From positions 62,001-126,000 of the forward strand of contig NZ_MVHH01000003.1 in assembly GCF_002086515.1 (NCBI RefSeq): a DNA stretch of 64,000 nucleotides. Direction: 5' to 3'. Source of the DNA: Mycolicibacter arupensis (GTDB lineage Bacteria; Actinomycetota; Actinomycetes; Mycobacteriales; Mycobacteriaceae). Made by a program: the position numbers and the translations under genes. The notes under the pieces are model-generated. The model saw only the letters and a program-made list of their open reading frames with translations, made no database searches and was not told the DNA's origin. Positions 39,770-62,630 of this stretch are shown piece by piece; position 1 is the stretch's first letter, and every line of letters starts with the position of its first letter.

Positions 39770-40032
39770 GGCAGTGTTCTCACCGATTGCAGGCCCTGTT
39801 GCAGGGCCCGCAGCGCGTAGTGCAGTTGTGTTTTCACGCTGACTTCCGCCATTTCCAGATCGGCTGCGATCTGCTGGGTGCTCCAGCCGTCGTAGTAGGC
39901 ACGGCGTAGCAGGTCCCGCTGTTCAACGGGGAGCTGAGTCAGTGCGGCGGCCACGGCGGCCCGGCCGGGAGCCAGGTGACGGGGCGCGCCCGCCATCGTC
40001 TCGCGATCTGCCGCGGGCTTTCCACTGTCCAT
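39766..40032 (-). CDS. Sigma-70 region 4-only protein
   Basis: An 88-residue protein. Residues about 30-85 match ECF sigma region 4 with the helix-turn-helix (LPVEQRDLLRRAYYDGW, TQQIAADLEMAEVSVKTQL) and resemble the same part of SigL. Region 2, needed for core binding and -10 melting, is absent, and the 130 bp upstream do not encode it. The ATG at 40032 has a GGGGAGG ribosome-binding site upstream. It is coupled to the ZAS-oxygenase gene (ATGA). It may be a degenerate duplicate of sigL, or a DNA-binding partner for the ZAS fusion. Confidence 0.78.
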   Translation of the reverse strand: MDSGKPAADRETMAGAPRHLAPGRAAVAAALTQLPVEQRDLLRRAYYDGWSTQQIAADLEMAEVSVKTQLHYALRALQQGLQSVRTLP

Positions 40033-40160
40033 GCACCGGCCTCCCCGAGTGACACGCTGCGGCGGCCTGGCCGGTTCACTTCGGATCCCCCCGAAACCGG
40101 CCGTGGCCCGTTCGTTCAGTCTGGTCCGCGTGAGGCGGCAGCGGAAGGGAGTGCTGGTTT

Positions 40161-40934
40161 TTACGACGTACTGGTGACCAGCGTCAGGTCCCAGGCCTGC
40201 AGCCACGGCTTGATCAACTGGGCGACCGAGGACTCCTGCGGGCCGGTGCACACCGCCTCGGGATCTTTCCCGTCGGACACCACGCTTAAGATGCCGACCG
40301 CTTCGGCGGTGCCGTCGGGCCGCACGCGGTACGCCGGGCCACCGGCATCGCCGCAGGTACCGGCCGCGGTGAAGCGCACCGAGTCCCTCTCGCCGGCGAT
40401 CACCGTGCCGCACATCGGCTCACCGCTGCGCACCCCCAGATGGCAGAGCTCGTCGCCGATCTCGACGCTGTCGGCCACCCCGGTCACCGGGCGACCGTCG
40501 ACTTCGGCGGACAGTGGGAACTTCTCGTGGCGGTCCAGGACGACGAGCCCGATGTTGGAATCTCCCCAGCGGTCGCCGTCGTAGACGCTCTGGGTGAACC
40601 CGCCGACGGTGGGGTAGAGGGCGCCGTGGTGGATGGCCACCTCGCCAGACCCGCCCGGCTTGTTGCAATGCCCCGCGGACAACAGGCCCGGCTGCCCCGT
40701 GTTGGTGCGGACCAGAAATCCCGCGGTGCAGCTGGTGGATTCCGAGCGTCCGGTGCCGGACACATTGATGCCGACGCCGGGACCGATCGCCTGGGCCGGG
40801 GGTAGCGGGATCAACTGCCGGACCGGCTGTGCGCGGGTGGCCCAGAAGATGCCGGCCAGGACTGTGAGCGCGCCGACCACGATGGCCAGGCGCTTGAGCA
40901 GGGTCTTGGGTGGGAGTCGTCGAATGGCGTCCAC
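40161..40934 (-). CDS. Membrane-anchored trypsin-fold pseudoprotease
   Basis: A 257-residue paralogue of the protease at 25515-26309, colinear throughout, with an N-terminal membrane segment (about residues 16-33). The catalytic His is kept (His89 in SAGHCN), but Asp is Asn127 (GDSNIGL) and Ser is Ala197 (GTCGDAGGPAY). The Ser-to-Ala codon is GCC where the paralogue has TCC, and the Asn codon is AAC against GAC, so each is one base away. The Cys pattern is retained, so the fold is probably maintained. It is likely to act as a binding or regulatory protein outside the membrane. It lies upstream of the sigma/anti-sigma genes. GTG at 40934 is used as start. Confidence 0.82.
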   Translation of the reverse strand: MDAIRRLPPKTLLKRLAIVVGALTVLAGIFWATRAQPVRQLIPLPPAQAIGPGVGINVSGTGRSESTSCTAGFLVRTNTGQPGLLSAGHCNKPGGSGEVAIHHGALYPTVGGFTQSVYDGDRWGDSNIGLVVLDRHEKFPLSAEVDGRPVTGVADSVEIGDELCHLGVRSGEPMCGTVIAGERDSVRFTAAGTCGDAGGPAYRVRPDGTAEAVGILSVVSDGKDPEAVCTGPQESSVAQLIKPWLQAWDLTLVTSTS

Positions 40935-41165: not shown

Positions 41166-44100
41166 ATGGCGTCGATGGATCCATCGGCTACGGGACCCGT
41201 CCCGTCATTCGGTTACCACCCAGATCCGGAACATCTCAGTATCGCCCTTGATCGCGGCGAGTTCGTGCGGGCGCTAGTACTCGACGGCCCGGTTCGTGCC
41301 CTTGCTTCGCATGTCAATGAGTGCCGGGTGCTCGGACAGTCCGAAGCGGAACTACCCGAAGGGCTGTACTGGTTTCAAGGACTCGATGGTGGAGCGCTGA
41401 TCCTTCAGGTGGCACTCGGTGGACCGCCGGGGGACGCGACGGTCGCACCGCTCGACCAACTCAGCGACGATCACCCGCTAATGGCGGCGTTCGCGTGGGC
41501 GGAGAAGTTTTGGCTCGACGGTCACGCAGTACCCACACCACGGTTTGAGCTCAACGAAGCCGCAGTGACCCACCCCGGCGACGTAGACGTCGTAATCCGC
41601 GACCGCGTGTATCTCGGCGGTAGGTCGGGGCAGTGGTCGTACACGGTGATCGTTGAGGGCCACCAGCAGAGCGTCATCGAATCCTCGCTCAAGCCCCGAC
41701 CGGAGCTCGACGATCCTCGAGCGTGGGTAACGCGAGAGCCGACGCCAGCGCGCCGTTTCGGTGCCACCTTGACGCGGGCGAAGTTGCAGAGCAAGTTCGC
41801 CAACACCCTGTTCTCGTTCCGCGCGACCCGCACCACCTTTCGTCCATACCAGTTCAAACCGGTCTTGAAGCTGCTGCAAACCGGTAAGGCCCGCATCCTG
41901 ATCGCCGATGAAGTAGGCCTCGGCAAGACCATCGAGGCAGGCCTGATCTGGACCGAGTTGGAGGCACGTCGGGAGGCCGATCGCGTGCTGATCGTGTGTC
42001 CCGCCGGCCTGGTCGGCAAGTGGAAAGAGGAGATGGACGACCGCTTCGAGTTCGACCTGGTTGAACTCGACACCGCCACCCTGCGGACGTTCTTGGAGAA
42101 GCACCGTCAGAACCGCCTGCCGCGCCGGCAGGCGTGTATCTGCAGCATTGAGCGCTTGAGGTCCTGGGAGGGCATGGATGAACTCGATGATCTGCCACCG
42201 GAATTCGACCTAGTCATCGTCGATGAGGCGCACTCCATGCGCAACCAGGACACCAAGAGCTATGCGCTGGGCACACGGCTCACCGACTGGGCGGACAATC
42301 TGGTTTTCCTCACCGCAACACCGATTAACCTACGTCAGGATGACCTGCTGAACCTGCTTGAGCTGCTCGCTCCCGGGGACTACGGCGACATCCGCGACCT
42401 GGAGCTACGTCTGGAACCCAACCGCATCATCAACGCTGTCGCGGCACGCCTGGTCGAGAAGGGTGTCAACGGCCGCGAACTGAGCACCCGGCTTGATGAG
42501 CTCAAGGTGACCGCGCTTGGCGCGCCGCTGATGCAACGCCCGGACTTCGCGCTTTTGAAAGAGGTCCTCGCCAAGGGTGACTTGGCGCCACGCGACATCG
42601 TGGAGGCCAAACGCTACCTGGCCGACCTCAACACACTCTCGACGGTGATCACCCGTACCAAAAAAGTTGAAGTCGACGACCGCAAGTCCAAACGGACCTT
42701 GGACCGACACGAAGTCGTCTGGACTCAGGCCGAAGCCGACTTTTACGACGAATACCTCCAGTGGTGTAGGAATCGGGCGAAAGCAATGGGACGGCCACTA
42801 CACTTCGCGATGCAGATGCCGCTGCGACTCGCCAGCGCGTGTCTGCCCATGGCACGGCGTGCCGTACTGGAGCCGAAGGCATTCGGTGACATCACCGATG
42901 CCGACTCCGATGCACCCGTGGTCCGACTCGAACCCCACGCCGGACTGATAGCGGCCGCGAAACGTCTACCCGCTGACGTCGACACCAAGTTCGATGACCT
43001 GTACGAGGTGCTGCGTACGCTGCATCAGCAGGGCCGGCGCGCGCTGGTGTTCACTCATTCGCGGCCGACTCTGGCTTATCTCAAGCAGCGCCTTGAGGCC
43101 GAGTTCCGGGTCGAGGTTATGCACGGCGGAGTGAATCGGGAGCAACGCCGCCGCATCATGGGAGAGTTCCGCGCCGGCGCACATGACTTCGTCCTCGCCA
43201 ACCGGGTTGCTAGCGAAGGTCTCGACTTCGAATTCTGCTCCGCTGTGGTCAACTACGACCTTCCGTGGAACCCGATGGAGATCGAACAGCGGATCGGCCG
43301 GATTGATCGAATCGGGCAAGTTGAAGAGGCCATGCTGGTGGTGAACTTCGTCAACGAGGCGACCATCGACGAACGTATCCTGTCTCGGCTGCTGGACCGA
43401 ATCGGGATCTTCGAATCGTCGATCGGGGCACTCGAGCCGATCATCGCCGCAAATGCGCCGCGGGCATTGGAGATTGGCTTCAACTTCTCATTGACACCCG
43501 AACAGCGCGAGCAGAAGATGCATGAGGTCGAGACGGCAATCGAGGAGCAACGCGCCGGATTGCAGGACGTCTCGGATGCCTCCAGCGCACTACTGGTCAG
43601 TAATGACGTCGATGTTGCCGGACTCGAAGACGATCTCATGCGTACTGGGCGCTATATCGGGCAGCTCGAGCTCGCCCAACTGCTCGACGACTGGGCGCGT
43701 GTCGACGGCGCGCCGGGAATCCGGTTCGACAAGGACCGGCGGACCGCTGAGCTGCACGGAAATCCGGTGATGGCCGGCCGTGTTGAGGAGCTCGCCAAAG
43801 CTGGCCAACGCAGCCGCTCCGAAACCAGTGGCATCACAGCACAACTGCGCAGTGAGATGCCCATTTCGCTGGTCCTCGATCAGGAGCTGGCTCGTACCGG
43901 TGGTGGCAAGTTGCTCACCGCGACTAGTCCGCTCGCAATGGCAGCGGCCGAGGTCCCAGGCCACCGTCAGGCGCGTTTCGCATCCTTGCGGATCCCGGCG
44001 AAGGCCGAAGATGTCGTACCGGGTGTTTACGTTGTGGTCATGGCCAAGGCTGTCTCAGCGTCGCGCGGTGGGGATGAAATCTGGGGCGCTGCGGTGACTG

Positions 44101-44543
44101 AGTCCGGACTTGACGCCGGCGACGGGCCGGCGAACGCCCTACTGGCAGCCCTCGCCGAGGGCGACCTTGAGGATGCTCCGTTGCGGTCCATCGATCGTCT
44201 GGAAAGGCTGGCGGATCGTGCACAGAACCAACTGCATGATCGTCACCAGAGCGAGCAAGCTAGGCGAGACCACCAGTTCGCGGCGCTGCAAGAGGCTCGA
44301 ACGATCACCTTGAAGGAACAGCACCAGCGCAAGGTCGCGACGATCGACAACCGCATCGCCACCGCGCGAGCACGTGGGCGGAGCGAGCGCGCTATCGCAT
44401 TGTTCGACAGTCAGCGGCGTCGCGCCGAGCAACGCTTCGCGGCGCTGTCCGCCGAGCTGCAGCGAGAGGTCCAACCCGAGATCCGACTCGAGCCGCTCGC
44501 GGCCTGTGTCATCGAAATAGCGGCGCGACGGAGGGATCAGTGA
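41166..44543 (+). CDS. SNF2/HepA-like SF2 helicase (DrmD-type candidate)
   Basis: A 1125-residue protein. An N-terminal unassigned domain (about 1-215) precedes the SF2 helicase: Walker A IADEVGLGKT (about 246-255), Walker B DEAH (353-356), SATP-equivalent LTATPIN, and helicase C with RALVFTHSR and the arginine-finger motif EQRIGRIDRIGQ (about 698). The C-terminal third is charged, with coiled-coil Glu/Gln/Arg-rich helices (about 1020-1110). The nearest known types are the large SNF2-like translocases of defence loci, such as DrmD of class 1 DISARM. The ATG at 41166 is chosen for spacing to a GAGAAGGGG; an upstream ATG at 41085 is possible. The stop overlaps the next gene by four bases. Confidence 0.85.
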   Translation: MASMDPSATGPVPSFGYHPDPEHLSIALDRGEFVRALVLDGPVRALASHVNECRVLGQSEAELPEGLYWFQGLDGGALILQVALGGPPGDATVAPLDQLSDDHPLMAAFAWAEKFWLDGHAVPTPRFELNEAAVTHPGDVDVVIRDRVYLGGRSGQWSYTVIVEGHQQSVIESSLKPRPELDDPRAWVTREPTPARRFGATLTRAKLQSKFANTLFSFRATRTTFRPYQFKPVLKLLQTGKARILIADEVGLGKTIEAGLIWTELEARREADRVLIVCPAGLVGKWKEEMDDRFEFDLVELDTATLRTFLEKHRQNRLPRRQACICSIERLRSWEGMDELDDLPPEFDLVIVDEAHSMRNQDTKSYALGTRLTDWADNLVFLTATPINLRQDDLLNLLELLAPGDYGDIRDLELRLEPNRIINAVAARLVEKGVNGRELSTRLDELKVTALGAPLMQRPDFALLKEVLAKGDLAPRDIVEAKRYLADLNTLSTVITRTKKVEVDDRKSKRTLDRHEVVWTQAEADFYDEYLQWCRNRAKAMGRPLHFAMQMPLRLASACLPMARRAVLEPKAFGDITDADSDAPVVRLEPHAGLIAAAKRLPADVDTKFDDLYEVLRTLHQQGRRALVFTHSRPTLAYLKQRLEAEFRVEVMHGGVNREQRRRIMGEFRAGAHDFVLANRVASEGLDFEFCSAVVNYDLPWNPMEIEQRIGRIDRIGQVEEAMLVVNFVNEATIDERILSRLLDRIGIFESSIGALEPIIAANAPRALEIGFNFSLTPEQREQKMHEVETAIEEQRAGLQDVSDASSALLVSNDVDVAGLEDDLMRTGRYIGQLELAQLLDDWARVDGAPGIRFDKDRRTAELHGNPVMAGRVEELAKAGQRSRSETSGITAQLRSEMPISLVLDQELARTGGGKLLTATSPLAMAAAEVPGHRQARFASLRIPAKAEDVVPGVYVVVMAKAVSASRGGDEIWGAAVTESGLDAGDGPANALLAALAEGDLEDAPLRSIDRLERLADRAQNQLHDRHQSEQARRDHQFAALQEARTITLKEQHQRKVATIDNRIATARARGRSERAIALFDSQRRRAEQRFAALSAELQREVQPEIRLEPLAACVIEIAARRRDQ

Positions 44544-46459
44544 GCACAACACGCAAAGACCTCGACCTCGAAGACGAACGGACGGCAGAGAAGCGGTACG
44601 CCAAGACTCTGCGGGAGAAGGCCAGTCAAGCCTCGGCGTATCAGGGACCGAGGAACAGTCTGTGGACTCGTACTGGGTTGCCTGCAGCGCGTGAGGTGCC
44701 GACCGGAGAACTCATCGGTCGAGTGGCACTCGTTGCTCCCCACGAATGGGTCGACGGCCGTTCCGATTTCTATATCGGCGAGAAACACGCCGAACTCGAC
44801 GGTATCGAAGTGTTCAGCTGGACTGCACCGATCGCCTGCACGTTCTACCGCGGCACCAGACATCACAAGCTTTGCGACGAGGTTGCTGTGGTCCGCACCA
44901 TGGTGCGACGCAACGGCCGGATCGTGGACTTCAGCGACGAGACTGTCCGCGCCGACGCGCCTGAGCGCCCATTCCGCAAGCGTGGGCTGGCGATCCCTAT
45001 CCCGCCGACTAAGCCCAAACGGCCGCAACCTGATGTGCCGAAGCCGTCAGACCCAGTCGCCGAAGGGCTCTCGGCAGCTGCGCGCCAGGGACACCATCAC
45101 TCCGATCACCCACCTGCCGGGATCCGTGCGGAAGAAGCGTTGCGGGCCCAGTTGCAGGCTCCGCGCACAAAACGACTGGATTCGGTTCTGGCCACACTGC
45201 AGCCGGACCAGTACGCGCTGGTGACGATGCCGGCGTGCGACAGCATGATTATCGAGGGAAAACCTGGCACTGGGAAGACGATCATTGCGTCGCACCGTGC
45301 CGCATACCTGGTCAACGAGGAAACTCCATCCGCGGACAGGTCTGCCGGCAACGTGCTGCTGATCGGGCCGACTGCGGGGTACTCCAAACACGTCCTCGGC
45401 GTCATCAACCGCTTAGCCAGCAACTCCGCACAGTTGCGGGTGCTCTCGTTGCCGGAGCTGTGGCAGCAAATTCTCGGGCTGAAGTACCCGGCGAAAGGCG
45501 AGATCTCGCCGACATCGCAGGACGCCGACTGGAAACTTGTGCGCTTGCTGCGGCGTGCCATCCGGCACATTCGAACGGCCAATGGCGGTGCCGCACTGTC
45601 AGCCGAGCAGGTCTACGAATACATGCGCGCCAACAGCGCAGTGGTCACGTCCGACCCGCAGTGGAGCACCTATTTGAGCGCTCTGCCCGAGTACCGGCAT
45701 GCGCGGACGCTTCAGGCCCATTCGCCGCTGCTCGCCTACATCCAGTGGGAGGTGAGTCCGCCGGCCGGCCTCGCTGGTATCACCCACATCATCATCGACG
45801 AAGCACAGGACGTAACTCCGCTCGGCTGGCTGCTGCTCGACGAGATCAACATCGAGGATCGCTGGACGGTGCTGGGAGATCTCAACCAGCGCCGGTCGGA
45901 CCACACTCCGGCGAATTGGCCTGAGATCCTGGACTTGATCGCGATCGAAGAAGACACGGCGATCTTCGAGTTGGCCATCGGATACCGTTCCACGCGGCCG
46001 ATTTTGGAGTTCGCCACCCGGCTGCTCCCCGCGAGTCAGCGCACGATCAATGCCTTCCAACAGCAGGGCCCGGACCCGGTTCTGACTAAGGTACGGCCGG
46101 CGGAGGTCGGCGACGCGGTCGCCGCGCAGGTGGAGCGGCTGCTGACTGCCTACCCACTGGGTACGGTCGCCGTGGTCGGCCCCGACACTGCCGCGGTGAG
46201 GAAGAGTCTTCGGGTGAGCGGGTGGGTCGGATCTATGCACGACTTGAGCCCGTGGGAGAAAGGCGGCCGGGAAGTCAACGTCCTTGACCCGGATTCGGCT
46301 CGCGGCATCGAGTTCGATGCGGTTGTCGTGGTGGAGCCGGCGGACTTCAAACAGAATCGCGGACATCAAGGGCCGCTGTACACCGCGCTGACGAGACCGA
46401 ACCGGGAGCTGGTGGTGGTGCATTCGAAGCTGTTGCCAGATGCTTTGCGGCGGCGGTGA
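44540..46459 (+). CDS. SF1 UvrD/HelD-like helicase or NTPase
   Basis: A 639-residue protein. The N-terminal 200 residues contain a helical start (LEDERTAEKRYAKTL) reminiscent of HelD and an unassigned beta-rich part (VALVAPHEWVDGRSDFYIG). The SF1 core has Walker A EGKPGTGKT (about 239-247), Walker B IIIDEAQDVT (about 418-427), motif IV GYRSTRP and a C-terminal YTALTRPNRELVVVH. It could unwind DNA or act on RNA polymerase as HelD does. It starts at a GTG overlapping the previous stop (GTGA), so it is made together with the SNF2 protein. This is not a standard DISARM component. Confidence 0.82.
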   Translation: MSTTRKDLDLEDERTAEKRYAKTLREKASQASAYQGPRNSLWTRTGLPAAREVPTGELIGRVALVAPHEWVDGRSDFYIGEKHAELDGIEVFSWTAPIACTFYRGTRHHKLCDEVAVVRTMVRRNGRIVDFSDETVRADAPERPFRKRGLAIPIPPTKPKRPQPDVPKPSDPVAEGLSAAARQGHHHSDHPPAGIRAEEALRAQLQAPRTKRLDSVLATLQPDQYALVTMPACDSMIIEGKPGTGKTIIASHRAAYLVNEETPSADRSAGNVLLIGPTAGYSKHVLGVINRLASNSAQLRVLSLPELWQQILGLKYPAKGEISPTSQDADWKLVRLLRRAIRHIRTANGGAALSAEQVYEYMRANSAVVTSDPQWSTYLSALPEYRHARTLQAHSPLLAYIQWEVSPPAGLAGITHIIIDEAQDVTPLGWLLLDEINIEDRWTVLGDLNQRRSDHTPANWPEILDLIAIEEDTAIFELAIGYRSTRPILEFATRLLPASQRTINAFQQQGPDPVLTKVRPAEVGDAVAAQVERLLTAYPLGTVAVVGPDTAAVRKSLRVSGWVGSMHDLSPWEKGGREVNVLDPDSARGIEFDAVVVVEPADFKQNRGHQGPLYTALTRPNRELVVVHSKLLPDALRRR

Positions 46460-46538
46460 AATACCACAACCGATGCCGTGCGGTTATATCGCCGGTTAAC
46501 GTTCATCATGTGGCGGCAGCGACTCCCGTGCTGTTGCC

Positions 46539-46571
46539 TGACCTTCGACATTTGATCGGCATATAACTGCA

Positions 46572-46574
<3 letters not shown>
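46539..46574 (+). promoter_or_regulatory. Candidate promoter for a leaderless second island operon
   Basis: A -10-like TATAAC (46562-46567) is preceded by CTGACC (46539-46544) at 17-bp spacing. Transcription would begin at about the ATG at 46572. No ribosome-binding sequence precedes that ATG. The 112-bp gap holding it is the only gap above 5 bp between the first helicase and the last + strand gene. Confidence 0.5.
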
Positions 46575-51710
<5,136 letters not shown>

Positions 51711-51714
51711 CGCA

Positions 51715-54531
51715 GTGGGATTCGCCCCCGGCAACCTGGTGACCGCGCGCGGCCGCGAATGGGTGGTACTGCCCGAGAGCACCGACGATTTCCTAGTGCT
51801 GCGCCCGATCGGCGGCATCGATGATGATATTGCAGGCGTCCTGGTCAGCGAGGGGGTCAGCCCCGCCATCTTCCCCCCGCCGGCGGCTGATGACCTGGGC
51901 GATCATCTGAGCGCCTCCCTGCTGCGCAGCGCGCTACGGATCGGATTCCGTTCCACTGCAGGACCATTCCGAAGCCTGGCATCGATCGCGGTGGAGCCAC
52001 GCGCCTACCAACTGGTTCCGTTGATGATGGCGCTGCGCCAGAATGTGGTGCGGCTGCTGATCGCCGACGACGTCGGTATCGGCAAGACCATCGAAGCCGG
52101 CCTGGTGGCCACCGAGCTGCTCAAGGCCGGCGACGCCCGGGGACTGGCAGTGCTCTGCGGCCCGGCACTGGCTGAACAATGGCAATCCGAGCTGCGCAGC
52201 AAGTTCGGGCTGGAATCCGAACTAGTTCGGCCCTCCACAGTGCGGCGGCTGGAACGCGGACGAATCGGGGCCGAGTCGATCTTCGAGCGCTACCCGGTCA
52301 CGGTGGTGTCCACCGACTTCATTAAGAGCGCCCGCCGGCGCTACGAATTCCTGCGCACCTGCCCGGATCTGGTGATTGTCGACGAGGTACACACCTGTGT
52401 GGCCGACTCCACCAGTACCGGGACCGGCCGCACCCAACGCTACGAGCTGCTGCGTGAGCTGGCCGCCGACACCTCCCGGCACATTGTTTTGGCCAGCGCC
52501 ACCCCGCACAGTGGCAAAGAGGAAACCTTCCGCAACCTACTGGGTCTTCTCGACCCCGACCTAGCGACCGTTGACCTGGAACAACGCAAGGGCCGAGAAC
52601 TGCTGGCCAAACACTTCGTGCAACGCCGTCGCGCTGACATCCGCCGCTACCTTGATGAAGACACCCCATTCCCCAAGGACAGGCTCTCTACCGAGGTGCC
52701 CTACACGCTCAGCCGTGAATATGAGGCGCTGTTCACCAAGGTGCTTGACTACGCCCGCGAAACTGTCCGCACCGAAGACGGCGGGCTGGCCCGACGGGTC
52801 AACTGGTGGTCGGCGCTGGCGCTGCTGCGAGCTTTGGCATCCTCCCCGCGAGCCGCGGCGCAAACGCTGCGCACGCGTGCCGCCGCAGCGGCGGCCGCAT
52901 CACCGGAGGAAGCCGACGCTATCGGCCGGGCCGTCGTACTCGACCAATCCGAGGACGAGGTGATCGAAGCCGCCGACACCACCCCCGGTGCCGATATTGA
53001 CGCCGCTAGTAATAACGTGAAAGCGCGACGGCTGTGCGGCTTCCTCACTGACGTACAGAAGCTGGAAGGCAAACCTGATAAGAAGATCGCCGCTGCGGTC
53101 AAAATCGTCCAGGAACTACTGGAGCTGGGCTGCGACCCGATTGTGTTCTGCCGCTTCATCGACACCGCCGATTACGTGGCTGAACAGCTCACCGCCGCCT
53201 TGGGTAGAGGCGTGACGGTGCGGGCGGTCACCGGAACCCTGCCACCGGATGAGCGGATCGCCCGCATCGGTGAGCTGGCTGCCATCGAAGGCCGACACGT
53301 ACTGGTGGCTACCGACTGCCTTTCGGAGGGGGTGAACCTGCAGGAGAACTTCCAGGCGGTGCTGCACTACGACCTGGCTTGGAACCCCACCCGCCACGAA
53401 CAGCGCGAAGGCCGCGTTGACCGGTTCGGCCAGACCGCCGACACAGTTCGCACCGTGATGCTCTACGGCAGCGACAACCAAATCGACGGCGTCGTACTTG
53501 AGGTGCTGCTGCGTAAACACCAGGCGATCCGCAAAGCTACCGGTGTGTCGGTGCCGGTGCCCGACAACACGGATGCCGTCGTCCAGGCCCTGATGGAAGG
53601 CCTGCTGCTACGCGGCAAGGACGCCGAACAGCTCAGCCTGGATCTCGACGTCCAACAACAACGCGACACCCTCTATGGCCAGTGGGAATCCGCGGCAGAA
53701 CGAGAGAAGATCGCCCAAACCAAATACGCCCAGCACGGCATCAAACCCGAGGAAGTCTCCGCCGAACTACGGGACACCCGCGAAACGCTGGGCACGAACA
53801 CCCAAGTCGCCGACTTCGTCGAGCAGGCCCTGCGTGCACTGCGCTCCACGGTCACGGCCGCCGACACCGGATTCACTGCCACCCTGACACCGCTGCCGCT
53901 CGGCTTGCGCGATTCACTGCCACCGGGCCGCAGCAACCCACTGCGCTTCGCCACCGACCTGCCAGTGCGCCGCGGAGAGGCGGTGCTCAACCGCACCGAC
54001 GCCTCCGTGGAAGCGCTCGCTCACTACGTGCTCGAATCCGCACTGGATGCAAACCTACCTGAAGAACAACGTCCCGCTCGGCGCTGCGCGGTTGTGCGCA
54101 CGAATGCGGTGACCACCCGCACCACGCTGGTGTTGGTGCGCTATCGATTCCACTTTCAACTGCCGTCCCGCACCGGGACCAAACAACTCGTCGCCGAAGA
54201 CGCCGCCACCCTTGCGTTTGAAGGCTCACCGGTTCAGGCGCACTGGCTCGATCCAGAGGCGGTCATCCCGCTGCTAGCAGCTCAACCTTCTGGCAATGTG
54301 CCCGCACCGCAGGCGGAGCAGTTTTTGAGCCGGGCCCTCGACGGGCTGCCCGACATCAATGGACACCTCGCCGAGCACGGTCAGCAGCTGGCAGAACGGT
54401 TGTTGGCGGCGCATCGTCGGGTTCGTCAGGCGTCCGCCGAGGTGGTACGCGGCTTGAAGGTCACAGTTGAACCCGGCGCTGATGTGCTGGGCATTTTCGT
54501 GTTCGTGCCCCCGGTGGGAGGCGGCAAATGA
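51715..54531 (+). CDS. Second SNF2/HepA-like SF2 helicase (DrmD-type candidate)
   Basis: A 938-residue protein, shorter than and divergent from the 41166 helicase. It has Walker A IADDVGIGKT (116-125), Walker B VDEVHT (222-227), SATPHSGKEETF (about 261) and a C-lobe with VLVATDCLSEGVNL and RHEQREGRVDRFGQT (about 561-575). The C-terminal 300 residues have no recognised domain. The GTG at 51715 is chosen: it follows a GAAGGAAGGG site and lies four bases after the previous stop. Longer in-frame starts would overlap the preceding gene. The stop overlaps the methyltransferase ATG by four bases, an arrangement like drmD-drmMI in class 1 DISARM. Confidence 0.85.
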   Translation: MGFAPGNLVTARGREWVVLPESTDDFLVLRPIGGIDDDIAGVLVSEGVSPAIFPPPAADDLGDHLSASLLRSALRIGFRSTAGPFRSLASIAVEPRAYQLVPLMMALRQNVVRLLIADDVGIGKTIEAGLVATELLKAGDARGLAVLCGPALAEQWQSELRSKFGLESELVRPSTVRRLERGRIGAESIFERYPVTVVSTDFIKSARRRYEFLRTCPDLVIVDEVHTCVADSTSTGTGRTQRYELLRELAADTSRHIVLASATPHSGKEETFRNLLGLLDPDLATVDLEQRKGRELLAKHFVQRRRADIRRYLDEDTPFPKDRLSTEVPYTLSREYEALFTKVLDYARETVRTEDGGLARRVNWWSALALLRALASSPRAAAQTLRTRAAAAAAASPEEADAIGRAVVLDQSEDEVIEAADTTPGADIDAASNNVKARRLCGFLTDVQKLEGKPDKKIAAAVKIVQELLELGCDPIVFCRFIDTADYVAEQLTAALGRGVTVRAVTGTLPPDERIARIGELAAIEGRHVLVATDCLSEGVNLQENFQAVLHYDLAWNPTRHEQREGRVDRFGQTADTVRTVMLYGSDNQIDGVVLEVLLRKHQAIRKATGVSVPVPDNTDAVVQALMEGLLLRGKDAEQLSLDLDVQQQRDTLYGQWESAAEREKIAQTKYAQHGIKPEEVSAELRDTRETLGTNTQVADFVEQALRALRSTVTAADTGFTATLTPLPLGLRDSLPPGRSNPLRFATDLPVRRGEAVLNRTDASVEALAHYVLESALDANLPEEQRPARRCAVVRTNAVTTRTTLVLVRYRFHFQLPSRTGTKQLVAEDAATLAFEGSPVQAHWLDPEAVIPLLAAQPSGNVPAPQAEQFLSRALDGLPDINGHLAEHGQQLAERLLAAHRRVRQASAEVVRGLKVTVEPGADVLGIFVFVPPVGGGK

Positions 54532-57500
54532 GCTACAACGCTTCGACATTCGTCGGCGTTCGCATCCAGGGTGGCTTACTGCCCGCCGATCTGCTGGGCC
54601 GGCTGGCTGCCCGCACCGGCGTTGACGGCCTGACTTCCAAGGATTATCACCTGGCTGCGGGGGAATCGGTCTCCGACGCAGCCAACCGGGTGTGGGCGTA
54701 TCTGCGTGGGGCGTGGACCGCCTACCGGGAAGCCCTAGGTGCGCTGCCCGACACCGACGCCGCCACCGCCTTGACCCGGGAAAGATTCCTGATGGTGCTG
54801 CTCGACCAGCTCGGCTACGGTCGGGTGCCCACCACGGGCAAGGGCGGGATCACATTGGGCGAGCATGCCTTCCCGATCTCGCACCTCTGGGGTCCGGTGC
54901 CGATCCACCTGCTGGGCCGGGTGCCGCTGGATACCCGCACCAAGGGCATGGCCGGCGCGGCTGGGGCTTCCCCACAGTCGATGGTGCAAGAACTGCTCAA
55001 CCGCTCCGATGAGCACCTGTGGGCGCTGCTGGCTAACGACACCACGCTGCGACTGCTACGCGACTCCACCTCGCTGGTCGGCTCGGCCTATATCGAATTC
55101 GATCTGGAAGCGATCTTCGACGGCGACCTGTTTTCCGACTTCCAGCTGCTGTACATGCTGTGCCAGCAGTCCCGCCTTGAAGTCCGTGACCCCGAAATCG
55201 GGCCCACCTCCTGCTGGCTGGAGCGGTGGCGCCAAGATGCCCTCGAGACCGGCTCCCGCGCGCTGAATCTGCTGCGCGACGGCGTCGTCGATGCCCTGCT
55301 AACCCTGGGGACCGGATTCCTCACCCACCCAGACAACACGACCTTGCGCGAACAGCTTGCCGACGGCACCCTGACGGTGAGCGACATCCACGAAGCCCTA
55401 CTGCGGGTGGTCTACCGACTGCTGTTCACCTTCGTCGCCGAAGACCGCGGCGCCTTGCTCGACCCGACCGCTGACCCGACCGCCCGGCAGCACTACCTGG
55501 ACTACTTCTCCACCGATAAACTGCGGCGCATCTCCCGGCGTCGCCGCGGCGGCCGCTACAGCGACCGCTGGCAGGCCCTGACTCTGGTGTGGCGCGGCCT
55601 CGGCGACGAAAACGGGCAACCGGAACTCGGATTGCCGGGTATCGGTGGGCTGTATGAGCCGGGGGAACTGGATTTCCTGACCACCTGCGCAGTCACCAAC
55701 GACGCACTGCAATCGGCAGTGCGCTCGCTGTCGCTGGTGCGCGAACCCCGCTCGCAGATCCTGCGGGTGGTCGACTACCGCAACCTCGGCGCCGAAGAGC
55801 TCGGCAGCATCTACGAAGCGCTGCTGGAATTTGTGCCCGCCTGGGACCCGGCCACTAAGACCTACCAGCTAACGGTGTCGGCGGGTAACCAGCGAAAGGA
55901 CACCGGTACGTATTACACCCCGACCTCGCTAGTGGAATCCTTGCTGGACACCGCTCTGGACCCGGTCCTCGACGACGCCCAGAAAGCCGATGACCCCCAA
56001 GAGGCACTGCTGAGCATCACGGTCTGCGACCCGGCATGTGGCAGTGGGCATTTCCTGGTCGGCGCGGCCCGGCGCATCGCCAAACGCCTTGCGCACATCC
56101 GCACCGGTGACCCTGAACCTGCCCCTGAGGCGGTGCGCACCGCGATGCGCGACGTGGTAGGCCGTTGCATCTACGGTGTCGACGTTAACCCGCTGGCCGC
56201 CGAGCTGGCCAAGGTGTCGCTATGGATGGAAACCCTCGACGCCGGCATGCCGCTGGCATTCCTCGACGCACAGATCAAGGTTGGCAACGGCCTGGTCGGC
56301 GCCACCCCGAAACTCCTCAGCGACGGCCTACCCGACGAGGCATTCAAACCGATCGAAGGCGACGACAAGAAGATCGCCGCCACCCTGGCCAAACAGAACA
56401 AAGCCGAACGCAAGGCCCAGGGCAGCTTGTTCGACATCGACATGGCCGCAGCCACCGAGAAACTCGGTGAGCAAGTTCAGCAAGTGGTCTCGGCCCCGGC
56501 GCTGTCGCTGGCCGACGTGCACGTACAGCAAAAGCGCTGGAACAGCTACACACGCTCGGAGGACTATCAGCGCCAACAGCTGGCCGCCGACGCCTGGTGC
56601 GCGGCGTTCGTCTGGACGAAAACCCCTGGCGCACCAACTGCGCCGACGCATCACACCATCGCCGCCCTGCTCGACGGCAACGGTGAACTCAGTGAGGCAT
56701 CACAGGCTGAAGTGCAGCGGCTGACTGCCGAATACCGATTCTTCCACTGGCATCTGGAGTTCCCACACCTGTTTTCAGTGACGGCCGAGGCCGGAGACTC
56801 GGTGAACCCGGCCACAGGCTGGGCCGGTGGGTTCTCGGTGGTTATCGCAAACCCACCCTGGGAGCACATCGAACTCAAGGAGCAAGAGTTCTTCGAGGCG
56901 CGAGATCCGGACGTCGCCAAGGCGGCTGGCGCTAAGCGCAAGAAACTGATCGCCGAACTCATCGCCACCGACCGGCCACTAGGTCGCGAATACCTCACCG
57001 AGAAGCGTCGCGTGGACGGCATACGGCATTTTGCAGCGAACTCGGGCCGTTACCCATTGTGTGGGCGGGGCCGCATCAAGACCGATCCGTTGTTCGCGGA
57101 GACCGGGCGCGACCTGCTGGCTGCTGCTGGCCGCTTCGGGATGATCTTGCCCACCGGCATTGCAACCGACGCCACCACCCAATACTTCTTCAAAGACCTC
57201 GTCGTCAACGGGTCGATCGCCAGCCTCTACGACTTCGAAAATGCCAAACCGCTCTTCGAAGGGGTGCATCGCAGCTACAAGTTCTGCCTGCTCACCCTGG
57301 TCGGCCGCGAGGCTCGCGAACCAGAGGCTGACTTCGCGTTCTTCGCCCATGACCCAACAGACCTGCAACGCCCGAACGTGCGTTTCACGCTCAGCCCCGA
57401 GGAGATCACCCTGCTCAACCCGAACACCGGCACCTGTCCGGTGTTCCGCAGCCGCCGCGACGCCGAAATCACCCTCGGCATCTACCGCCGGGTGCCGGTA

Positions 57501-58493
57501 CTCATACGCGAAGGCGATCCCGACGGAAACCCTTGGGGGATCAATTTCATGCAAGGTCTTTTCAATGTGACCAGCGATTCGGGGCTGTTTCACAGCCGCG
57601 AGGAGTTGGAGGGTGACGGGTGGGTGCTGCGCGGAAACGTGTTCGAGCGGGGCAAGGAGCGGATGCTGCCGTTGTATGAGGGGAAGATGATCCACCATTA
57701 CGACCACCGCTGGGCCACCTACGAGCGTGACGGTACCGTCCGTGACGTCACGCTGGCAGAGAAACAAGACCCGAATTTCGTTGGCATGACGAGGTATTGG
57801 GTGGACGAGCGGGAAGTTGATGCCAAGCTCAAGGAGCGCTGGGATCGTGAATGGTTGCTGGGTTGGCGCGACATCTGCCGGAGCACTGACGAGCGGACAT
57901 GTATCGGAACCATCAATGGGAAGAACGCATCGCCCGAGGGCGGAACACTGCTTACGTTCTGTGACCCGCCCGAAGCGGCCCCTTTATTGTTGGCGGACTG
58001 GAACAGCTTCGTGTTCGATTTCGTAGCCCGCCAGAAAGTCGGTGGCACACACCTCAAGTTCTTTACAATGCGTCAGCTTCCCATGCCTGCATCTGAAACA
58101 TTGGGCCGAAAGGTGCCGTGGGCAGGGTGCCGCTGGTCAGATTGGGTAATAGGACGAGTCCTTGAGTTGGTCCTCGACAACACGGAGATGACTAATCTTG
58201 CTACCGATTTTGACGCCAGTTTGGCATCGTCTCCGTGGAAGGTTGAGACGCGCGCGCTCTGTCGTGCCGAACTAGACGCCGCATTCTTTCACCTCTATGG
58301 CATCGAACGGGACGATGTCGACTACATCATGGAGACGTTCCCGATCGTCAAACGCAAGGACATCGCCGAGCACGGCGACTACCGCACCAAGAAGCTGATT
58401 CTGGAGGTCTACGACGCGATGGCAGAGGCCGAACGCACAGGGGTGTCGTACATCTCGCCGCTGGGAGACACCGTGAAGAAGGGGGCCGAGTAG
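54528..58493 (+). CDS. Large N6-adenine DNA methyltransferase (Eco57I/DrmMI/PglX-type)
   Basis: A 1321-residue protein. The N-terminal half (about 1-440) has no assigned domain. The segment [19 protein letters not shown] (about 458-476) leads into the SAM motif [18 protein letters not shown] (about 498-515). The catalytic motif [13 protein letters not shown] is at about 770-782. The C-terminal 500 residues resemble target-recognition regions of Type IIL/BREX-type enzymes. It should modify adenine at a specific site and so mark self DNA. Coupled by ATGA to the second SNF2 helicase and by three bases to mcrB. No separate nuclease motif is seen in it. Confidence 0.88.
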
Positions 58494-58496
58494 GCG

Positions 58497-60743
58497 ATGA
58501 CTGAGCAGCTCGCGACGAACCGATGGGCGGCTGCCACCGCACTGGAGGAGGTCGGACGGCGAATCATCGACTTCGGGTTCGGCAAAGACGACTCGCTGCT
58601 CACACCGGGTCGGCCGATCTGGACCGCAGCGAATCTCGACGAGCTGACCCGCTTCTATGTCGATAGGCCGGATGCCGGCTCGGGAGGGTTCTTCGAGAAG
58701 CTGAAGCTGCAACTCGCCGATGCCTCACCGGATGCGGTGCAGCTATTCGCCGAGCTGTTGATCCTCAACACGCTGCCGCTCACCAACGTCAGCGGAGCAT
58801 TGAAGGTCAAGCAGATCCGCAACGTCCTCGATATGAGCCCGGCTCCGGTTGCGATACCGGCAGACGTCGCAGCCGTGCTGGAGGCGCCGGGGGTGTTCAA
58901 CGGCGGGCAGGCCTTCACCAGCCACCGGTGGGCGCAACTGGTCTACCTCATCGAGGTTGCCCGATACTTCAAATCGCTGCCCGAACAGCGCCTGGTCGAC
59001 GCACTCGATGACCCGCTGGCCTTCCGCGAAGAAGTCGGCGCGGTGCAGACCGGCCAGGCCGCTCAGAAGCAGTCGCTTCTGTACGTGGCGTTCCCGAAGT
59101 TTTTCCTGCCGATCGTCAGCGCCGAGCACCGCCAACTTTTACGTGATCGGCTGGCCGACAAGTATCTCGATCACCGGACCGGCGATCGAGACGCTGATAT
59201 CGCCGCAATCTACGCCGCGGTCACCGACGCCGAGGGCGGCTACATCGACCTGTACGACGAGCCCTATGTGTACTGGTGGTTCAAGACACCTCCGCCGCCG
59301 GTGCGACGCGCCTGGAAAGTCCACGGCGCTGGCGTCAAAGGCCAAGATATGGTGCCGATCTGGCGCCACAAGAGCGCGGTCTCGCTGGCCGCCAGCCGGT
59401 TGCGCACCGTTGCCGCTGGCATCGGCCGCGACGAACTCAAAGCGGTCGTCGACGAGGATTACGACTCCTCGGGCTACGCTCAGCGCCAGGAGAAGCTCGA
59501 CGAGTTCGGGGCGTTCCTTAACCGCATGCATCCCCAGGACGTCGTCGTCACCGTCAGCCAGGGCCGGGTGTATTTCGGGGTCATCACCGGGGATGCCGAG
59601 TACGTCGGCAGCAGCGACGGACGCTCCAACCTGCGTCGGCCGGTCAAGTGGTACGACAACTCGCTGCCGCTGGCCGAGCTGCCCGATGAGGTCGCCGCCC
59701 GACTGGGTGCCCAGGGCGAGGTGCTCGATCTGAGCCAGCACCTCGACACCCTGGTCGCGTTGGCCGAGCGACGCCAGCCCCCGGCCGGCACGACCGCGAT
59801 GCATCTGCCGGACGCCACCGCCGAACTGGCCGAACGACTTTACGTGCCCCGGCGGTGGCTGCAGGAATGTGTTGAGCTGTTGCGTGACCGCCCGCAGCTG
59901 ATCTTCTACGGCCCACCGGGCACCGGTAAGACCTACATCGCCCAGGAACTTGCCCGCCACCTGGCTACCGAGCCCAACGTCAAGATCGTCCAGTTCCACC
60001 CCGCTTACTCCTACGAGGATTTTTTTGAGGGCTACCGGCCCACAGGTCAGAGCGGCGGGCAGGTCGGGTTCTCGCTCAAACCCGGGCCGCTGCGGTCCCT
60101 GGTGGACCGGGCCAACGAGAACCCGACCGCGGTCTACGTTTTGATCATCGACGAGATCAACCGCGGCAACCTCGCCAAGATCTTCGGCGAGCTGTACTTC
60201 TTGCTCGAATACCGCGACAAGACCATCGACCTGCTGTACTCCTCAGAAGACACCGAACCGTTCACACTCCCGAAGAACATCATCATCCTCGGCACGATGA
60301 ACACCGCCGACCGCTCCATCGCATTGGTCGACGCCGCGATGCGGCGCCGGTTCGCATTCCTGGCGCTGCACCCCGCGGAGGAACCCACCAACGGCATTCT
60401 GCGCAAATGGCTGGCAGACAACGGCCGCCCGAGCGAAGTCGCTGATCTGCTCGACGAACTCAATGCCCGCATCGATGACGCGGACTTTAAGATCGGGCCG
60501 TCGTACTTCATGCGGCGGGCGATCTATGACGGTGACGAACGCGGGCTGGAGCGGGTGTGGCGCACCGCCATCCTGCCGCTGCTCGAAGAGCACCACTACG
60601 GCGACCGCGCGGTGGATGTGATGGCACGGTATGGATTGTCGGCGATCGAAAAGGCGGTGCAGGCCAGAGTCGACGTCGCCTACCCGCCTGCAGTCTCGAC
60701 TGTGGAACACGATGACACCATCGCCGCCGCTGACGCTGACTGA
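58497..60743 (+). CDS. mcrB: McrB-type AAA+ GTPase with EVE-like segment
   Basis: A 748-residue protein. Residues about 1-330 form a long N-terminal region found in many McrB relatives. Residues about 345-395 ([19 protein letters not shown], then RRPVKWYD) look like an EVE/PUA-type modified-base reader. The AAA+ core has Walker [14 protein letters not shown] (about 468-480), [16 protein letters not shown], Walker [12 protein letters not shown] and the McrB signature GTMNTADRS (about 599-607). McrB recognises modified DNA and powers McrC cleavage. It starts three bases after the methyltransferase stop. Confidence 0.92.
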
Positions 60744-61914
60744 AGGCGGCGACTCGCAGGTCGTCGAGCTAACCGGTGGTGACTACCGGGTGCTGCAGCG
60801 GCTCGGTCTGGTCACGGTGACCCCGACACTCGACCCGGGCAGCTACGAGATCGCCGCCGGTCGCAAGGTTGGGGCGGTCACGGTGGGGGAGCGTCAGTTC
60901 ATCGTCCGCCCCAAGATCACCGACTTGAACCGGCTGCTGTTCTTGATCGGGTACGCCAAAGACCAGCGGCTCTGGCGCGATGATCAGGTCGACCTCATCG
61001 GTGCCGACGACTTGCTGCCCGGCATCGCCGAAGCCTTCAGTCGGCTTGCCTCGCACGCCGTCGACCAGGGAGTTCTGCAGGGCTACCGCACGGTTCGTGA
61101 GGCGCTGCCTGTACTGCGCGGCAGAATGCTCGCAGGCGAGCAGATGACCCGACTCTATGGGCTGCCGGTGCCGGTCGCGGTCGAGTACGACGACTTCACC
61201 GTCGACATCGCCGAAAACCAGCTGCTGCTGGCCGCCACACTGCGGCTACTGACCGTGCCACGGATCAGCGAGACGGCAAGAAGGCGGCTGCAGCGGCTGC
61301 GTCAAAGCCTTGCCGACGTGTCGATCTTGTCGCGTGGCGCTGCTCTGCCGTGCTGGCAACCGAGCCGGCTGAACACCCGTTACCACTCGGCGCTGCGTCT
61401 GGCCCAGATTGTCCTTGCGGCAGAGTCTTTCGAGCATCATGTTGGTGAGCTGCGGGTGTCCGGCTACATGTTCGACATGTGGCGGGTGTTCGAGGACTTC
61501 GTCACCGTCGCGTTCAGTGAGGCACTGGAGGCATCCGGGTGGCGATGCGAACCGCAGGCGGTGTTGCACCTTGACGATGCGCGCCAGGTTCCGATGCGCC
61601 CCGATCTGCTGTGCCATGCACAGGGGGTGCCGGTGTCGGTCGTCGACGCCAAGTACAAGGCTGAGCGGTACGACGGGTTCCCGAACGCCGACCTCTATCA
61701 AATGCTCGCCTACTGTACCGCTCTTGGGTTAGACGAAGGACACCTAATCTATGCTAAGGGCAATGAACCGGTCAGCGTGCACACAGTGCGGCGGTCCGGC
61801 ATCGTGATCCACTGCCACGCACTTGATTTGGCGTTGCAGCCCGCTGACCTACTGAAGCAGATTCACGGATTGGCCGTCCAGATTTCGTCGACCACGGTCG
61901 AAATAGGAGTGTAG
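60712..61914 (+). CDS. mcrC: McrC endonuclease subunit
   Basis: A 400-residue protein. The N-terminal region (RVLQRLGLVTVTP, FIVRPKI) is the McrB-binding part of the family. The middle has VEYDDFTVDIAENQLLLAA. The nuclease core is PD-(D/E)XK with Asp in MRPDLLCHAQ (about 296) and VVDAKYK (about 307-313), followed by a Gln/Tyr helix (LYQMLAYCTALG). It would cut DNA once activated by McrB translocation. The ATG at 60712 lies inside the end of mcrB (32-bp overlap) and precedes the conserved start; longer in-frame starts look non-coding. Confidence 0.92.
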   Translation: MTPSPPLTLTEGGDSQVVELTGGDYRVLQRLGLVTVTPTLDPGSYEIAAGRKVGAVTVGERQFIVRPKITDLNRLLFLIGYAKDQRLWRDDQVDLIGADDLLPGIAEAFSRLASHAVDQGVLQGYRTVREALPVLRGRMLAGEQMTRLYGLPVPVAVEYDDFTVDIAENQLLLAATLRLLTVPRISETARRRLQRLRQSLADVSILSRGAALPCWQPSRLNTRYHSALRLAQIVLAAESFEHHVGELRVSGYMFDMWRVFEDFVTVAFSEALEASGWRCEPQAVLHLDDARQVPMRPDLLCHAQGVPVSVVDAKYKAERYDGFPNADLYQMLAYCTALGLDEGHLIYAKGNEPVSVHTVRRSGIVIHCHALDLALQPADLLKQIHGLAVQISSTTVEIGV

Positions 61915-62630
61915 TGACCGAGCCGACGACGTTTCGCCTCGACACACTCGACCTTGCATCGGTATTCGGCTGGGATTTGGACCATCTTTCTACTCTCGAC
62001 GAGTTCAGCAAAGGCGGCATCACGATTCTGGTGCAGTACTCATCCGAAGACGCGATCACCAGCCTCACGCGAACTCGACCGAAACGCGCCGACGAAGCCT
62101 TCTCGGCAGTTTCACCGGGGAACAACGAGCGGCTTCGGTTGTGGTTGACGGGCCAAGCACTGGCGCCCGCTACTTCGGGCACCGGACTCTTCCAGGGGCT
62201 GAAGATCCTATTCGACCCTCGGGACACTGATGCCTGGGCGCCGCAGGAATTCCTCGATGCTGTCGAAGGCCAATCCGACAGCGCCTTCCTACACAGGGTT
62301 CTGGAGAGGCTGCAGGAGAACAGCCGGCTTCCGGCGATGGGCGATTACTGCCACCTGTTCTTCGGTCAGCGCCCCCTCGGCGGAATGTTTGTTTACCCGT
62401 TCATGCGCAGGTTCCCGCCGTACAAGTTCAAAGTCAAAGCTGGGCAGCTGCAGATTGCTGGCTGTTGGAAAAGCAACTTTAAGGTCACCGGGCATCCTGG
62501 TTTTGCGGAGCTGGCTTCGATGTTGGGACTTGACCACACCGGTTCTGCGCCTTGGAGTCCGGTCTCAGGACTTGACCCCGACGAGCTGTGGGAGGTAGGC
62601 GAAAGAGTCTCCCGCGCGATCAACGCTTGA
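61914..62630 (+). CDS. Unknown protein co-translated with McrC
   Basis: A 238-residue soluble protein of no recognised family. It has an acidic N-terminal half (FGWDLDHLSTLDEFSKGG), a central DYCHLFFGQRPLGG, and a C-terminal half with several aromatics (RRFPPYKFKV, AGCWKSNFKV). No nuclease, helicase or membrane motif is seen. The GTG shares its first base with the last base of the mcrC stop (TAGTG), so it is produced with McrC and is likely a functional part or inhibitor of that module. This is inferred from coupling only. Confidence 0.75.
   Translation: MTEPTTFRLDTLDLASVFGWDLDHLSTLDEFSKGGITILVQYSSEDAITSLTRTRPKRADEAFSAVSPGNNERLRLWLTGQALAPATSGTGLFQGLKILFDPRDTDAWAPQEFLDAVEGQSDSAFLHRVLERLQENSRLPAMGDYCHLFFGQRPLGGMFVYPFMRRFPPYKFKVKAGQLQIAGCWKSNFKVTGHPGFAELASMLGLDHTGSAPWSPVSGLDPDELWEVGERVSRAINA

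Follow-up and report, generated by a model that had tools for sequence, protein, structure and literature searches.

An ARMADA type I-like gene set joined to McrBC, beside a separate two-gene motor module and a small companion gene, as the probable make-up of a gene island in Mycolicibacter arupensis

A 64,000-nucleotide stretch of DNA from Mycolicibacter arupensis (RefSeq contig NZ_MVHH01000003.1, positions 62,001 to 126,000), hereafter the window, contains at positions 41166-62630 an island of eight open reading frames, g1 to g8, all of which lie on the forward strand, as a first-pass annotation of this DNA had reported. The first gene, g1 (41166-44543, 1125 amino acids), encodes an SNF2-type ATPase that resembles DrmD and RapA according to PADLOC, NCBIfam and solved chains, and is followed by g2 (44540-46459, 639 amino acids), the product of which is a HelD-like motor of superfamily 1 (SF1) as judged by NCBIfam, a PDB profile and fold comparison. 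A spacer of 112 base pairs (bp; 46460-46571) separates this g1-g2 module from g3 (46572-51710, 1712 amino acids), which encodes a YprA/ArmC-type helicase with the MrfA zinc-binding domain (DUF1998) and ends in a Vsr-like nuclease tail comprising the final 118 codons (51354-51707), whose D-G-P-x-H motif is lost according to alignments. Next come g4 (51715-54531, 938 amino acids from GTG 51715), encoding an ArmA/BrxHII-like SNF2 ATPase, and g5 (54528-58493, 1321 amino acids), encoding a PglX/ArmB-like adenine methylase with the motifs DPACGSGHF and NPPW. The remaining genes are g6 (58497-60743, 748 amino acids) for the GTPase McrB, which carries GPPGTGKT and an NTAD signature, g7 (60712-61914, 400 amino acids) for McrC, in which PD...DAK is present, and g8 (61914-62630, 238 amino acids) for a putative mycobacterial companion of McrBC. 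The motif names used here (Walker A, NxxD, PD...DAK, NPPW) follow common usage and the papers on ARMADA and McrBC.

The families given in the first-pass annotation were recovered by family matches: g1 and g4 fall into SNF2, g2 into the UvrD/HelD type of SF1, g3 combines DEAD with the MrfA zinc-binding domain, g5 is an Eco57I/N6 methylase, g6 an AAA_5-type McrB and g7 an McrC (PF10117), and g8 had no match in PADLOC, Pfam and NCBIfam. Neighbouring genes overlap by 4 bp (g1/g2 and g4/g5) or 1 bp (g7/g8), or are separated by 3 bp (g5/g6) and 4 bp (g3/g4, where the alternative start ATG 51685 would yield a 26-bp overlap instead). Hence, the previously given spacing of at most 4 bp, apart from the 112-bp gap between g2 and g3, is accurate for all junctions but g6/g7, which overlap by 32 bp with the ATG of g7 at 60712. 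The G+C content amounts to 62-65% across the island versus 66-69% at 30-40 kilobases (kb) of the window. Named relatives of the window proteins, such as proteins from Mycolicibacter terrae and M. algericus, indicate a mycobacterial host. The DNA flanking the island showed nothing in common with the loci of relatives, bar scattered matches in genome G270 that are located elsewhere, and therefore the islands reside at differing genomic places.

According to the available text of the ARMADA preprint (Bell et al. 2025, PMC12458937), type I of this system features the gene order YprA - BrxHII-like - PglX-like, which is also the order of g3, g4 and g5. A survey of 397 genomes of the host's taxonomic order with g4 yielded 33 full-length orthologues, that of the window included, and at all 32 other loci g4 is flanked on the same strand by a YprA-type helicase gene before it and a methylase gene after it, the latter being truncated in G099 where the contig stops. 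Since the gene order is conserved in relatives, a chance arrangement is ruled out. In comparison with ARMADA of Escherichia coli ATCC 8739, g3 is nearest to ArmC, g4 to ArmA and g5 to ArmB. In a 27-row tree comparing g3 and its orthologues with the type II ArmC of E. coli and with DruE-like proteins of E. coli and actinobacteria, where the E. coli rows occupy long branches, g3 and its orthologues constitute one clade (support 95) that is separate from both of these groups; g3 thus represents a YprA helicase of a clade of its own with DUF1998. Type I helicases are further characterized by a BrxA-like insertion and zinc modules, and CxxC pairs are visible in the g3 sequence. Based on the published gene order and the g3 clade, g3-g4-g5 is hence assigned to ARMADA type I as its core. 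ARMADA YprA proteins are described in that preprint text with a terminal, predicted active Vsr-type nuclease, from which g3 deviates by its lost motif, so that the locus is counted as a type I variant, with g1-g2 and g8 as additions in the window. The earlier guess that the island might belong to DISARM-related arrays thereby proved correct, these arrays being ARMADA as presented in that preprint text, while the possibility that it is an already named system, which the first-pass annotation had allowed for, applies in outline to g3-g7 but not to the exact eight genes.

PADLOC relates g3 to DruE, g4 to DpdE (PDLC02853, 1054 bits) and g5 to DrmMI, and automatic annotation would therefore scatter the ARMADA core over three other systems. 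DISARM class 1 likewise comprises an SNF2 protein (DrmD-like), a methylase (DrmMI-like) and a YprA-family helicase, but was rejected because the helicase and the DUF1998 module are fused in g3 instead of being encoded separately as drmA and drmB; moreover, the window has McrBC in the place of DrmC, and no DrmC-type nuclease was among the hit lists shown for g1-g8. Druantia type III, to which the top PADLOC score of g3 for DruE points, was discarded as g3 groups apart from DruE-like proteins and no DruH was among the matches listed for g1-g8 together with four neighbours. ARMADA type II was dismissed since the order in the window differs from ArmA-ArmB-ArmC followed by ArmD; the similarity of g2 to E. 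coli ArmD is limited to 137 residues.

Apart from the window, some loci display peculiar versions of the core. A second methylase copy of the g5 type follows the first one in G241 (L027/L028) and precedes g3 in G119 (L057/L058). In a Mesorhizobium locus (L209, 19637-22400) the ARMADA type I core is succeeded by genes annotated as SMC and HNH endonuclease, which replace McrBC, and the tail motif is lost. In another locus (L188, from 9747) the core precedes a Gabija-like combination of an apparent OLD-type ATPase gene and a UvrD-type gene, recognized by eye on the same strand. In Deinococcus radiodurans MP1 (L207, 14817-19846) the methylase of the ARMADA locus is annotated as two separate genes, which are followed by an IS630-type element and, further downstream, by McrBC.

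Type IV restriction by McrBC combines an McrB GTPase bearing the NxxD signature with a PD-(D/E)xK-type McrC, and both features are found in g6-g7. The joining of the helicase/methylase part with McrBC, as proposed by the first-pass annotation, recurs widely: McrBC is located behind the core in 18 of 33 loci of the taxonomic order, window included (17 of the 32 others), in 13 of 27 further loci of the class, and in three of five plasmid records (Nocardioides, Deinococcus and Chlorohelix) that were opened out of 65 with a match. The Nocardioides record, plasmid pNOCA01 of Nocardioides sp. JS614 (L206), retains the tail motif. In the reverse direction, a search with the McrC of the window detected 37 places in 35 of the 397 genomes, and ARMADA loci account for 18 of these 37 matches as well as for 13 of the 16 closest. 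Furthermore, Mantel correlations among 33 ARMADA loci with McrBC, calculated with host kinship uncontrolled, reached r 0.78 for g3-g5, 0.73 for g3-McrC and 0.66 for g3 and the C-terminal part of McrB. McrC divergence thus tracks YprA divergence almost as closely as that of the methylase does, and the ARMADA helicase/methylase part and McrBC accordingly constitute a recurring, co-diverging set. The partnership as such is already published: a paper of 2024 (Bell et al., PMC11090510) states that McrBC is prevalently linked to a DISARM-like cassette, and the introduction of the ARMADA preprint recalls the association with McrBC operons. The McrBC branch described in the 2024 paper shares with the window an NxxD-type McrB and McrC beside YprA, SWI2/SNF2 and PglX genes; its available text on this branch states the association, whereas tail loss and co-divergence were not seen there, unlike in the window. 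Beyond this published association, the present analysis adds the loss of the tail motif, a measure of the co-divergence, the free-standing pair g1-g2, and g8.

Most tails among the 33 orthologues of the order conform to the consensus ARPDFVY...VAVFVDGPVHD...RD, of which the DGPxH stretch is absent from the window as well as from G142, G270, G109 and G329, with G142 additionally being devoid of the first D. The latter four are the nearest relatives of the window, in the lineage of which, as in others, the motif is lost. In total, the tail pattern fails in 25 of 63 loci, corresponding to at least eight changes on the tree; this tally excludes L205, which has no g3 in view, and L210, whose g3 runs off the end and whose order differs. 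As the call is a pattern that also fails for rows with D-G-P but without H (for example L181 and L182), some of these losses may be partial. Motif loss was encountered in 16 of 24 loci with McrB directly after the methylase versus 9 of 34 otherwise (Fisher p 0.003), where "tight" linkage was defined only after the gaps had been seen and the inclusion of L208 (211-bp gap) and of G241, whose McrB comes after the second copy of the methylase, was a matter of judgement. With respect to any McrBC in view, the contrast is slight, at 18 of 34 versus 7 of 24 without (Fisher p 0.11). Both comparisons exclude five short contigs (G099, G396, L180, L191 and L203), and L208 was scored as McrBC-present by annotation, its McrBC having been missed by sequence searches. 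A class-level clade of six loci (L182 and L185-L189) has lost the motif, with McrBC in view only in L186.

A degenerate g3 tail would presumably no longer cut DNA, and because its motif is lost, cutting by the helicase tail, which the first-pass annotation had considered, is unlikely in the window. Since the motif is lost from the tail but intact in McrC, it is likely that McrC has taken over cutting at this locus; as a general rule, such a takeover is only a possibility. In our view, the island is probably composed of three adjacent modules, namely an ARMADA type I-like set with McrBC (g3-g7) in which McrC is the likely cutter, the g1-g2 pair, and g8.

Several observations weigh against this interpretation and would fit instead with ARMADA type I and McrBC being independent systems that travel together, one directed at unmarked and the other at modified DNA, with a helicase tail that is merely decaying. 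McrBC is missing from 15 of the 33 loci of the order (some contigs end soon after), and where present it lies 0.5-5.3 kb from the core in 10 of 33 loci. Two loci, L085 and L086, harbour McrBC and g8 without the core, and because their McrC nests within the mycobacterial ARMADA-linked McrC clade, McrBC-g8 can evidently exist on its own. The tail motif is kept in 16 of the 34 loci with McrBC and lost in the aforementioned 7 of 24 without it, and an independent-pairs test on rows of the tree counted 2.2 pairs in the same direction and 1.3 in the opposite one, that is, no significant link between tail loss and McrBC once kinship is taken into account. The Mantel comparisons, on which the co-divergence is based, are themselves uncontrolled for host kinship. 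Against two mere companions stand the McrC distances, which follow those of YprA nearly as closely as the distances of the core methylase do, and the immediate succession of methylase and McrB at 23 of 33 loci (with G241 in both position counts read as adjoining its second methylase copy). We regard two independent systems as rather unlikely, though as the likeliest of the alternatives.

The lost tail motif, together with the two genomes of the genus in which McrBC-g8 occurs by itself, could also indicate that the core is decaying and non-functional in the lineage of the window and that only McrBC-g8 still works. All frames are open, the motor and methylase motifs are present, and the full-length identity with the G142 counterparts is 90% for g3 and 92% for g4, which makes such a loss of function very improbable.

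The preferred reading with three modules further implies that g1 and g2 form a unit of their own. g1 matches the DrmD model of PADLOC (PDLC02623) with 393 bits and that of NCBIfam with 330 bits, under the cut-off of 610, and its nearest solved relative is RapA, a motor that recycles RNA polymerase; since g4 matches the RapA model too, this likeness may be common to the group in general. For g2, the best PDB match, by profile (E 4.6e-38) as well as by fold, is HelD, likewise a motor in RNA polymerase recycling, to which both its motor and its N-terminal part can be aligned. Membership in the curated HelD/HelR families is not indicated, as the best NCBIfam score is 131 bits with cut-offs of 419 to 1100 and the stretch between the motor blocks amounts to 121 residues versus 272 in HelD. 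Loci with g2 were gathered by scanning named genomes with aligned g2 homologues (80 loci) and by the search of the order (8 loci); after exclusion of 48 of the scan loci (L127-L174), which match little beyond the motor part, 40 loci were retained, 37 of them with full-length g2, the window, G270 and G241 not being counted. At 34 of these 37 loci g1 is situated at most 1 kb upstream of g2 on the same strand, and across 35 pairs, that of the window among them, the distances of g1 and g2 are correlated (r 0.91). Views of up to about 10 kb, many of them shortened by contig ends, revealed an ARMADA-type g3 at one of the 40 loci (L100, on the opposite strand). Accordingly, g1-g2 is an independent two-gene module that mostly occurs without ARMADA in view.

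This free-standing distribution contradicts the view of the first-pass annotation that the eight genes constitute one composite system, which we deem improbable even though the genes share one strand with small gaps, g1/g2 lies only 112 bp from the rest, and the pair is found near ARMADA in G270 and G241 as well. Full-length g2 is present in 9 of the 397 genomes, three of which (window, G270, G241) have it beside ARMADA, that is, at only 3 of the 33 core loci; in G241 the pair is inverted. Other than in the window, g1-g2 precedes ARMADA on the same strand only in G270, where the gene between g2 and g3 (L011 9327-10934, reverse strand) encodes a ThsA-like SIR2 protein of 535 amino acids.

Ten neighbours of g1-g2, namely nine genes at 6 of 14 listed loci and the G270 insert, were chosen by eye and thus reflect association, not rate. 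They match BREX (BrxHI, PglZ), DISARM DrmB, a type I restriction enzyme, Vsr, MzaC and PDC-S68, with a strong match in five of the six sampled loci and a weak one in L099. These hand-picked rather than randomly sampled neighbours suggest a defence role, and in combination with the co-occurrence of both genes we infer that g1-g2 would act as a defence unit in its own right. No description of g1-g2 as a pair was found in the PADLOC hits, the NCBIfam hits or the literature searched. In two loci a third gene of about 1250 codons directly follows the pair (L087 4885-8688, reverse strand; L098 11954-15706, forward strand), the one in L087 matching the PADLOC candidate PDC-S68 with 1399 bits.

As for g8, matches are confined to 6 of the 397 genomes, all from one genus, and a wider protein search retrieved 37 homologues; by sequence it appears to be a mycobacterial companion of McrBC. 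Elsewhere in the window, a single frame on the reverse strand (38147-39769) combines a zinc finger of the anti-sigma type (residues ~13-64) with a domain of the carotenoid oxygenase family (~105-540) and overlaps the frame of an ECF-type sigma factor at 39766-40413.

Protection against phages by ARMADA is reported in the available preprint text for the type II system of E. coli only, where deletion of any of the four genes abolishes it. In the mechanism envisaged here, g5 would methylate host adenines and thereby mark self DNA, g3 and g4 would load onto unmarked DNA and translocate along it, and the GTP-driven McrB-McrC would introduce the cut of which the g3 tail is probably incapable, whereas g1-g2 would act separately from g3-g7. 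A bolder version, which we offer tentatively as a possibility, envisions a single machine running on two fuels, in which ATP-driven ArmA and ArmC would locate unmarked DNA, translocate it and pass it to GTP-driven McrB-McrC for cutting. Where McrBC had become tightly built in, as in this lineage, the helicase could have dropped its Vsr nuclease, and the RapA-like and the shortened HelD-like motor in front would form another defence unit that as yet has no name.

The restriction mechanism of ARMADA counts among the unknowns in the available text of a 2026 review (PMC12904381), and loci that combine a motif-less helicase tail with McrBC render this question directly testable. In addition, g1-g2 represents a defined, co-diverging two-gene unit and hence a candidate for a new defence system.

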